DNA of 64,000 bases. Source: Pseudanabaena sp. FACHB-2040. GTDB taxonomy: Bacteria > Cyanobacteriota > Cyanobacteriia > Phormidesmidales > Phormidesmidaceae. Where the stretch lies: the NCBI RefSeq assembly GCF_014696715.1, contig NZ_JACJQO010000002.1:124001-188000 (forward strand), given 5' to 3'. The translations under genes and the position numbers were made by a program. The notes beneath the pieces are model-generated. The model did no database searches and was not told the DNA's origin. It saw only the letters and a list, made by a program, of their open reading frames with translations. This document shows positions 52,564 to 54,759 of the stretch, piece by piece; position 1 is the stretch's first letter, and every line of letters begins with the position of its first letter.

Positions 52564-54759
52564 ATGGATAAACCTTCTCCTGTCTCTAAGGCTTGTGCAT
52601 GCCGCAAGGTAACTCGCTGTCAGTCCGGAGAGGCAGGCAAGCTCTTCTTCTGGTTTCCTGTTCAACATACCCTGAAAAAAGTTACTGCTCATCTGCAGCA
52701 GTTTGCGCTTCCCTATGAACTGATGAGTGAGCGACCGGGCCTCAGCGTTAGCTGTAGACCTGGGCAAGCCCAAGAAATCTCCCATAAACTAGCCCAACAC
52801 CTCACGCCGAGAGAACTCAAAGAAACTCAGGTTCTATTTATCCGAGGCGCAATTCAACCTCAGATTCAAGATTTCAGCGATATTGCTCCGCTTCAGCGCT
52901 TCATTACATTCAATCAAGCGGACGGGCTGATTGATATGCTGTCAGCAGAGCGCTTCACTAGCCACTTCCAGCCGATTGTTTCAATTCAAAACACCTCCGA
53001 AATCTTTGGCTACGAAGCTCTCTTGCGCGGGTTAGATGCTCAAGGTAATCTACTGCCGCCAGGGCCAATTTTTGAGTTAGCTGCAGAGGCAGGTTTGCTG
53101 CCACAGCTAGATCGCATCGCCCGACTCAGTGCCATCAGTCAGTTCAGCCAGTATCCCGTCAGCGGACAAATTTTCATTAATTTTACGCCAACAGCACTGT
53201 ATGACCCCGTGGCCTGTCTACGCAGCACGGTGGAGGCGGTTGATCAGGCCGGTATTTCACACGATCAGGTTGTTTTTGAAGTTGTAGAGTCAGATAATCC
53301 TCAGGATCTAGCCCACCTCAAGGCAGTGCTGAAGTATTACCGTGACTCTGGCTTTCGGGTAGCGCTTGACGATCTCGGTTCTGGCTACTCCGGCTTGAAC
53401 CTGCTGCATCAGCTGCGGCCTGATTTTATTAAGCTAGATATGGAGCTGATTCGAGATGTCCATGAGAACCCATACAAGGCTTCAATTACCGGAAAAATCT
53501 TAGAAATTGCCCAAAAGCTCAATATTCAAACCGTAGCTGAAGGCATTGAGTGTGTTGAAGAATTGAACTGGCTGCAGGAGCACGGCGCGTCGTTTGCTCA
53601 AGGCTATCTGATCGCCAAACCCAGTGCTATCCCAGTCTCTACGACCCCCTGCTTTGATGCGATCGCACTGCCCCCTGAACCTGTCTGGAGCCAGCACAGC
53701 TGGCCTGGCGTTCAGCACCAGAGTGAGGCTGAGCGGGTCGTTGCTGCAGTCACCCATCGGATTCGTCAGTCGCTGGAGTTAGATGAGATTCTGCAGACCA
53801 CAGCCGATGAAGTCCGGCAGCTCTTTGAGGTCGATCGGGTCATCATCTATCGGTTTGAGCCAGACTGGAGCGGGCTGGTTGCGGTCGAATCGTTGAGGGA
53901 GGGCTGCCCGTCCATTCTCGGAGCCCATGTCATGGACACCTGCTTCAAATCGACCCATGCCGCTCACTACCAGCAGGGTAATTCAAGAGCCATTAGCGAC
54001 ATCGAAACCGCAGGGCTATCACCCTGCCACAGGGAGTTGCTGACCAGTTTGAAAATTCGGGCCAATCTAGTCGTGCCCATTCTGCAGCAAGATTGCCTAT
54101 GGGGGCTGCTGATTGCTCACCAGTGTCGCGGGGAGCGGCCGTGGGTGCAGGCAGAGATCAACCTGCTCAACCAGCTTGCCGGCCAAGCTGCGATCGCAAT
54201 TCAGCAGTCAGAGCTATACCACCAGCTGCAGCAGGCAAACCAGGAGCTGCAGCGGCTAGCCTCTTCCGATGGATTAACTCAGGTAGCCAATCGTCGCTGC
54301 TTTGACAATACCCTTAAACTGGAATGGCAGCGGCTCGCCCGTGAGCAAACAGCGCTATCCCTCATCCTGTGCGATGTAGACTGCTTCAAACTCTACAACG
54401 ACACCCACGGGCACTTAGCGGGTGATGATGTGTTGCGGCACATTGCCCAAGCCATCTCTCAAACAGTCCAACGCACTACTGATTTGGTGGCTCGCTATGG
54501 CGGCGAGGAATTTGCCGTCGTTCTGCCCAATACTGATGCAGTAGGTGCGATCGCAATTGCCAAAAAAATTCAGGCCCGCATTCAGGCGCTGCAGCTGTCT
54601 CACCCCAGTTCCCCCAGCGGGAGTTTCGTCACCCTAAGCTTGGGCTTAGCCACCCTAATTCCAGATAGCCAAACCTCTCCAGAAACCTTGATCGCCGCTG
54701 CCGATCAGGGGCTCTATCAGGCAAAAGCCTTAGGACGAAACCGCTTGGTGCAGGTATAG
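52564..54759 (+). CDS. Cyanobacteriochrome-regulated cyclic di-GMP enzyme, EAL-GAF-GGDEF
   Basis: The 731-residue cytosolic protein has three modules. The EAL domain (about 118-360) keeps E151, N206, E239, D269-D270, K290, E326 and Q346. The GAF domain (about 390-555) has the cyanobacteriochrome pair: D458-T-C460-F461 (DXCF) and C488-H489. The cysteine spacing of 28 equals that of TePixJ, and [10 protein letters not shown] follows. The C-terminal GGDEF domain has R637-T-T-D640 (I-site) and G-G-E-E-F (646-650). The protein could make and break c-di-GMP under blue/green light. EAL precedes the sensor, unlike GAF-GGDEF-EAL proteins. The first 115 residues are unassigned. Confidence 0.9.
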   Translation: MDKPSPVSKACACRKVTRCQSGEAGKLFFWFPVQHTLKKVTAHLQQFALPYELMSERPGLSVSCRPGQAQEISHKLAQHLTPRELKETQVLFIRGAIQPQIQDFSDIAPLQRFITFNQADGLIDMLSAERFTSHFQPIVSIQNTSEIFGYEALLRGLDAQGNLLPPGPIFELAAEAGLLPQLDRIARLSAISQFSQYPVSGQIFINFTPTALYDPVACLRSTVEAVDQAGISHDQVVFEVVESDNPQDLAHLKAVLKYYRDSGFRVALDDLGSGYSGLNLLHQLRPDFIKLDMELIRDVHENPYKASITGKILEIAQKLNIQTVAEGIECVEELNWLQEHGASFAQGYLIAKPSAIPVSTTPCFDAIALPPEPVWSQHSWPGVQHQSEAERVVAAVTHRIRQSLELDEILQTTADEVRQLFEVDRVIIYRFEPDWSGLVAVESLREGCPSILGAHVMDTCFKSTHAAHYQQGNSRAISDIETAGLSPCHRELLTSLKIRANLVVPILQQDCLWGLLIAHQCRGERPWVQAEINLLNQLAGQAAIAIQQSELYHQLQQANQELQRLASSDGLTQVANRRCFDNTLKLEWQRLAREQTALSLILCDVDCFKLYNDTHGHLAGDDVLRHIAQAISQTVQRTTDLVARYGGEEFAVVLPNTDAVGAIAIAKKIQARIQALQLSHPSSPSGSFVTLSLGLATLIPDSQTSPETLIAAADQGLYQAKALGRNRLVQV

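Follow-up and report, generated by a model that had tools for sequence, protein, structure and literature searches.

The window analysed here is a stretch of 64,000 nucleotides from the cyanobacterium Pseudanabaena sp. FACHB-2040 (contig NZ_JACJQO010000002.1, positions 124,001 to 188,000), and it contains, at 52564..54759 on the forward strand, an open reading frame (ORF) of 731 residues that codes for a protein with an EAL domain, a GAF domain of the two-cysteine cyanobacteriochrome (CBCR) type and a GGDEF domain. The best explanation of the protein as a whole, which we hold with reasonable rather than high confidence, is a bifunctional light-regulated enzyme of cyclic di-GMP (c-di-GMP) metabolism, laid out as the C-terminal half of Cph2 but with a different N-terminal domain (NTD). 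The ORF starts with an ATG, a choice consistent with the N-termini of its orthologues, and a Pfam scan of the protein finds EAL (124-353, 2.1e-57), GAF (405-546, 4.1e-24) and GGDEF (567-727, 8.4e-51), in this order, with no PHY and no other kind of domain. The features are the following, in coordinates of the window:

52564..54759, forward strand: whole gene, NTD, EAL, two-cysteine CBCR GAF and GGDEF (ORF call, Pfam)
52594..52620, forward strand: N-terminal cysteine motif C11-x-C13-x5-C19, with C64 further on (orthologue conservation)
52630..52917, forward strand: NTD, residues 23-118, predicted ferredoxin-like fold, no Pfam family (AlphaFold2 model)
52933..53622, forward strand: EAL domain 124-353, catalytic residues complete (Pfam, alignment to solved EAL domains, conservation)
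53632..53727, forward strand: EAL-GAF linker, residues 357-388, variable, probably flexible (low predicted confidence, length variation)
53776..54201, forward strand: cyanobacteriochrome GAF domain 405-546 (Pfam, PDB matches, tree, alignment)
53935..53946, forward strand: DXCF motif D458-T-C460-F461 with the second cysteine (aligned with the DPCF of TePixJ)
54025..54030, forward strand: canonical chromophore cysteine C488 and H489 (alignment, conservation)
54148..54264, forward strand: continuous GAF-GGDEF signalling helix 529-567 (AlphaFold2 helix, fixed length in orthologues)
54262..54744, forward strand: GGDEF domain 567-727 (Pfam, orthologue rows)
54472-54483, forward strand: I-site RTTD 637-640 (sequence)
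54499-54513, forward strand: GGEEF 646-650 (sequence)

The first-pass annotation of this gene had described a DXCF cyanobacteriochrome with D458-T459-C460-F461 and C488-H489, a spacing of 28 residues between the two cysteines, equal to that of TePixJ, complete EAL motifs, a GGEEF site and an RxxD I-site (RTTD). All of these were found as described, the spacing having been counted on the printed residues of both proteins, and in the alignment to solved cyanobacteriochromes that it had proposed both cysteines match the TePixJ positions, C460 aligning with the DXCF cysteine and C488 with the canonical cysteine of PDB 3vv4. This entry reads 'methyl-accepting chemotaxis protein' and we take it to be TePixJ; AnPixJ, Slr1393, NpR5113 and PPHK (6oap) are likewise the names that we presume for other solved references, whose entries give generic molecule names. 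The GAF domain thus has the marks of a DXCF two-cysteine CBCR: a canonical cysteine, a second one 28 residues earlier and no PHY domain.

Orthologues were collected in two samples. A protein matching both halves (threshold 1e-105) is present in 24 of 388 genomes of the window's class, the own genome included; one of them, in G253, is a degenerate copy cut at a contig end (family code f26), the 22 intact relatives share 67-76% identity with the window protein and the 23 intact proteins, own included, belong to family codes f1, f15, f24, f25, f28 and f32. Judging by identical cores of shared loci (L035/L112 and L005/L111), the own genome probably has the family code, f1, of Nodosilinea sp. FACHB-131 and Phormidium tenue FACHB-1052. 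The second sample is a named genome collection, from which the best 80 of 306 confirmed stretches were taken as the basis of the later counts; 52 of these 80 cover essentially the full query in one stretch, as judged by match range (L121 is included despite its broken frame, and L157, whose match runs across separate ORFs, is not counted), and they come from Nostoc, Mojavia, Chlorogloeopsis, Calothrix, Tolypothrix, Nodosilinea, Leptolyngbya, Pantanalinema, Myxacorys and others. Pooling gave 75 rows (24 + 51, some genomes being present twice; L121, the partial L131 and L132, a repeat of L048, were left out), and conservation was counted on the 64 full-length rows, that of the window among them, which differ from one another within residues 190-715. 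All four of D458, C460, F461 and C488 occur in 62/64 rows (C460 in 62, C488 in 63), which rules out a chance motif, and residue 489 is His in 62 rows and Tyr in 2. Both chromophore cysteines are replaced by His, and GGEEF by SGGEF, in a divergent copy from a metagenome-assembled genome (MAG) of Thermosynechococcus sp. WC_1 (L048/L132), which keeps the EAL catalytic residues within the available part. As judged from its sequence, the GAF domain is very probably a functional two-cysteine CBCR. The genome has one heme oxygenase match and one bilin reductase match and, therefore, a supply of phycocyanobilin is expected.

The two enzymatic domains also look complete. The EAL motifs (EALLRG, N206, E239/E242, D269D270, K290, E326 and Q346) line up with those of solved EAL domains, of which 6ifq and BlrP1 (3gfx) match best, and the domain has E151 as well as the DDxGxGYS loop. 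N206, E239, E242, D269, D270, K290, E326 and Q346 are invariant (64/64) and E151 is present in all 63 readable rows; these residues presumably bind the metals and the substrate. An active phosphodiesterase is therefore predicted with good confidence. The A-site consensus of diguanylate cyclases, GG(D/E)EF, is represented by GGEEF at 646-650, intact in 63 of the 64 rows.

How the light signal could reach these domains is suggested by the connections between them. An AlphaFold2 model of the full protein (48 sequences; predicted local distance difference test, pLDDT, 80.6; predicted template modelling score, pTM, 0.47) has one long helix, 529-567, running from the GAF into the GGDEF domain, and pLDDT falls below 50 at 367-386, between EAL and GAF. 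The GAF-GGDEF helix has a fixed length in the orthologues (38 residues over 529-566, with a mean commonest-residue frequency of 0.94), whereas the EAL-GAF linker is 27-52 residues long with a commonest-residue frequency of 0.59, and for this reason the cyclase is the more likely target of light; both the structure model and the conservation favour an action mainly on the GGDEF side. The spacing from LWG to DGLT, 57 residues, is the same in the Cph2-like protein of this genome, in a CBS4-GAF-GGDEF protein of Aphanothece and in 16 of 23 other GAF-GGDEF loci measured (the rest being 50, 56 or, where the pattern matched at an earlier position, unreadable).

The order of the domains had been contrasted with the GAF-GGDEF-EAL arrangement of the SesB/SesC group, but it is no departure from known layouts, because the C-terminus of Synechocystis sp. 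PCC 6803 Cph2 is already described as EAL-CBCR-GGDEF, with a bilin bound through two cysteines, an adjacent GGDEF domain activated by blue light and an active EAL domain (PMC5812497). Cph2 has the same order of EAL, two-cysteine CBCR and GGDEF as the window protein but differs in its N-terminal GAF-GAF(PHY)-GGDEF red/far-red module, in place of which the window protein has a short cysteine-marked NTD. A Cph2-like protein of 1291 residues is encoded in the same genome (L161 979-4854, G000:C13), with the layout GAF-GAF(PHY)-GGDEF(HGDGF, degenerate)-EAL-GAF(DEPCF...CH)-GGDEF(GGEEF), which likewise rules out that the order is unique; the best match of its N-terminal part is Cph2 itself (4bwi, 3.6e-74), it shares 52% identity with the window protein over GAF-GGDEF and its EAL domain scores 268 bits in Pfam, versus 197 bits for the window protein. 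SesC and SesB from Thermosynechococcus are CBCRs with GGDEF and EAL domains as well, in the order GAF-GGDEF-EAL, and the window protein differs from them in its N-terminal EAL domain. The same annotation had proposed that one protein may both make and destroy c-di-GMP under blue/green light; a two-cysteine CBCR between two intact enzymes is well supported, but bifunctionality is not new either, since SesC is described as a single CBCR protein through which c-di-GMP is made in blue light and degraded in green light (PMC5871770, PMC8846402). Closest to the cyclase end of the chain are SesA and the Aphanothece CBS4-GAF-GGDEF protein, in which, as in the window protein, a CBCR GAF domain lies directly before an intact GGDEF domain; unlike the window protein, they have no EAL domain on the chain, and SesA also carries CBS domains. 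The SesA cyclase is reported to be induced by blue light (PMC5812497), and Cip1 and the GAF-PHY sensor of Cph2 are listed alongside as far-red-responsive GAF sensors (PMC8846402).

In the mechanism that we propose, a bilin (phycocyanobilin, perhaps isomerised to phycoviolobilin) would be attached to C488 and, in the dark state, C460 would form a second thioether bond to it, giving a blue-absorbing form. Light would break the C460 bond and produce a longer-wavelength, probably green, form, and the 529-567 helix would relay the state of the sensor to the GGDEF dimer. Diguanylate cyclase activity would thereby rise in blue light, as it reportedly does in Cph2, SesA and SesC. The EAL domain would be an intact phosphodiesterase, flexibly linked to the rest of the chain, and would most likely provide a co-localised, largely light-independent (perhaps NTD-regulated) degradation that sets a floor and resets the pool. 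We infer the bilin adduct, the colours, the sign of regulation and the physiological output; by analogy with the systems above, activation of the cyclase by blue light is fairly probable. The Cph2-like protein, with its identical GAF-GGDEF spacing and the same EAL-GAF(DEPCF, CH)-GGDEF end, the bilin genes and the Aphanothece locus with separate NTD-EAL and GAF-GGDEF genes (see below) speak for this light-gated enzyme.

Several observations weigh against it. The I-site pair R637 and D640 is present in only 32 of the 64 rows, with His at 637 in 26, and Nostoc sp. 'Peltigera membranacea cyanobiont' 210A (L088) has DTGF, with Gly replacing the DXCF cysteine, and keeps the canonical one. At a pTM of 0.47 the model does not fix the packing of the domains, that of EAL against GAF included, so that direct control of the EAL domain by light is possible, although strong control of this kind seems doubtful. 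Nor does blue light raise c-di-GMP in every cyanobacterial case: the phosphodiesterase of SesB is controlled by its CBCR, and a LOV-GGDEF/EAL protein of Synechococcus elongatus is described as a blue-activated phosphodiesterase (PMC5812497). With regard to the colours, the Val found at residue 456 in 57/64 rows (Ile in TePixJ) fits a feature of the NpR3784 lineage, and in a pruned tree of the GAF domain (47 rows, after dropping 27 long or redundant ones) the approximately unbiased (AU) test rejects none of four sister groupings, the p values being 0.247 for 6oap/6mgh, 0.346 for TePixJ, 0.369 for the extended red/green (XRG) references and 0.312 for the Cph2-like GAF domains.

The colour pair is where a different reading fares best. 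In this alternative, which we find unlikely but still the strongest of its competitors, the domain is a two-cysteine CBCR with other colours (for instance violet or blue with orange or red, on unisomerised phycocyanobilin) that controls the cyclase. Among PDB entries the GAF domain matches best, by sequence, the dual sensor histidine kinase 6oap (185 bits), followed by 6bhn and, third, 6mgh (miRFP670nano), and both 6oap and 6mgh are ahead of TePixJ 3vv4 (111 bits); the miRFP-nano proteins derive from NpR3784 (PMC10357936). A WXDXXL motif, with Trp two residues before Asp, is described as an XRG feature, and the red/green NpR3784 lineage as having a conserved Val in place of this Trp (PMC11284453). 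Membership in XRG is ruled out by Val456 and by the lack of Trp at this position in all 64 rows; Val456 agrees with the NpR3784 lineage, but C460 is at odds with it, as this lineage lacks the second cysteine of the DXCF motif. In both trees the window GAF groups with its orthologues in a single clade (support 100/99), and in the larger one (74 rows) TePixJ is more distant from this clade than the 6oap/NpR3784 and XRG references are, the support being moderate (93/89, at an open fork); since four sister groupings pass the AU test in the pruned tree, the colour pair is not readable from the phylogeny, and such a reading was dropped. As this placement allows several alternatives, blue/green is no more than the typical expectation for a DXCF domain: CBCRs of this type are described as typically isomerising phycocyanobilin to phycoviolobilin and as blue/green (PMC11284453), and the two-cysteine CBCR of Cph2 is called blue/green, although one review gives phycocyanobilin for it (PMC8846402, PMC5812497). 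On sequence grounds blue/green would therefore be the likeliest of the candidate pairs, by a little better than an even chance.

A symmetric switch, in which the sensor drives both enzymes so that one light state has the cyclase on and the phosphodiesterase off and the other the reverse, is described for SesC (PMC5871770, PMC8846402), and 63 of the 64 rows retain the active sites of the two enzymes intact. We consider it improbable here, the EAL domain of SesC lying, in the order given above, downstream of GGDEF, and that of the window protein being N-terminal to the GAF and joined to it through the variable, low-confidence linker; in addition, EAL-only relatives persist without any sensor. 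Least probable of the three, and clearly unlikely, is a protein that is mainly a phosphodiesterase, with CBCR-GGDEF as a light- or GTP-sensing regulator of EAL and not a significant cyclase, for which the short NTD-EAL forms nested in the full-length clade (one with a GAF relic, see below), the Thermosynechococcus MAG copy that keeps EAL without the cysteines and with SGGEF, and SesB, described as light-controlled, upregulated by GTP and without cyclase activity (PMC5871770, PMC8846402), can be adduced, against the near-constant GGEEF and the fixed GAF-GGDEF helix.

In the N-terminal region of our putative light-gated enzyme, a Pfam search of residues 1-124 finds no family up to an E value of 10. 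The NTD is marked by conserved cysteines: C11 and C13 are present in 61/61 readable rows, C19 in 59/61 and C64 in 62/63. An outgroup of stand-alone NTD-EAL proteins, which have the same NTD and the same EAL but no GAF or GGDEF on the chain, has a CxxC at the same place in all 20 rows printed in register, and C64 is not constant among them. An AlphaFold2 model of the NTD alone (pLDDT 80) is ferredoxin-like; its top structural matches, PII and PstA, are tied at a VIA-align Z of 8.0 (root-mean-square deviation 2.5-2.6 over 72-73 residues), a background level for common folds, and the best Foldseek match is UreE (E 0.013). As the structural matches are at background level only, no family, ferredoxin-like or PII-like, was assigned from the fold. 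A metal or redox role of this domain is a guess.

Stand-alone NTD-EAL proteins are found in many cyanobacteria (Microcoleus, Tychonema, Kamptonema and others), at 50-55% identity. Matches of 47-49% identity occur in MAGs labelled Myxococcaceae and Chloroflexia (L158, L160), the Myxococcaceae match having two stop codons in the given frame. Aphanothece (L140, 3765-7134) has an NTD-EAL gene (390 residues) divergent beside the CBS4-GAF(DTCF)-GGDEF gene (697 residues), a pre-fusion-like arrangement, and the GAF-GGDEF part of the latter, which carries DTCF and CH, is 58% identical to that of the window protein. Argonema (L143) and a Chroococcidiopsidaceae MAG (L157) have a GAF- and GGDEF-coding stretch after the NTD-EAL gene, broken up in L157. 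These sequences suggest that the gene probably originated by fusion of an NTD-EAL protein to a CBCR-GGDEF protein. A tree built from 48 NTD-EAL sequences has seven short forms, which share 65-76% identity with the window protein, nested at three or more separate points within the full-length clade, and GAF or GGDEF stretches near the short-form loci (L134, L136-L139, L050, L053 and L054; E up to 1) were not found at 7 of the 8, with flanks that are short at some of them (0.3 kb downstream in L138). The eighth, Shackletoniella antarctica (L136, 7146-7208), has right after the stop codon a piece of 21 residues that is 76% identical to GAF 391-411 (E 7e-5). The simplest reading would be a single fusion, with the CBCR-GGDEF half apparently lost at least three times; the tree alone does not separate loss from regain, and in the L136 lineage loss is supported because this GAF relic follows the stop of an EAL-only orthologue.

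From these data a broader, speculative picture can be drawn, to which we give little credence as yet: a widespread, apparently undescribed family of dual-input c-di-GMP switches, in which a cysteine-marked, ferredoxin-like NTD that responds to metal or redox state governs the phosphodiesterase and a two-cysteine CBCR governs the cyclase, and which arose by fusion of two enzymes and repeatedly shed the light-gated cyclase. If true, the existing relatives would let both inputs be separated without engineering. They form a natural comparison set: loci that encode NTD-EAL and CBCR-GGDEF in two adjoining genes, proteins in which both are fused, proteins that lack the CBCR-GGDEF half, one with a replacement of the DXCF cysteine and one without both cysteines and the GGDEF signature. 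With this set one could test which of the two enzymes responds to light, or whether both do, and which signal the cysteine-marked NTD detects. The EAL-CBCR-GGDEF layout of Cph2 exists also as a compact 731-residue protein in filamentous and heterocystous cyanobacteria, and not just as part of a phytochrome with six domains. The main interest is the fusion-and-loss series together with the unexplained NTD, rather than the domain order; new here are this Pfam-unrecognised, cysteine-marked NTD common to stand-alone EAL proteins, the probable fusion origin and a series of three or more apparent losses, a GAF relic remaining in one case. In the open-licence PubMed Central literature searched, the term 'EAL-GAF-GGDEF' is absent and, among the papers listed, no study of the window protein or its orthologues was recognised by title or opening of the abstract, although earlier spectroscopy of an orthologue is possible; surveys of Nostoc punctiforme CBCRs, which reportedly exist, were not found there.

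In the window the gene is flanked by genes for a ZIP transporter, a FUR-type regulator and a peroxiredoxin. These adjacent genes were not found in the orthologue flanks examined, and eight neighbour proteins compared with these flanks, part of them of at most 1.5 kb, gave one weak match only (TldD, 24%, at one locus); a conserved operon is ruled out by this lack of shared neighbours in the flanks examined, and the neighbours, therefore, say little about function. A promoter scan found none, an uninformative result. Some Nostoc have a second DXCF CBCR upstream of the EAL-GAF-GGDEF gene (L082 1962-5797; related GAF domains in L084 and L098), which in L082 is a PAS-GAF-histidine kinase followed by a response-regulator/kinase gene. 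The own genome (G000) has 26 EAL matches over the Pfam cut-off, and it contains a split EAL pair that includes a stop codon at C27:14699-15396.

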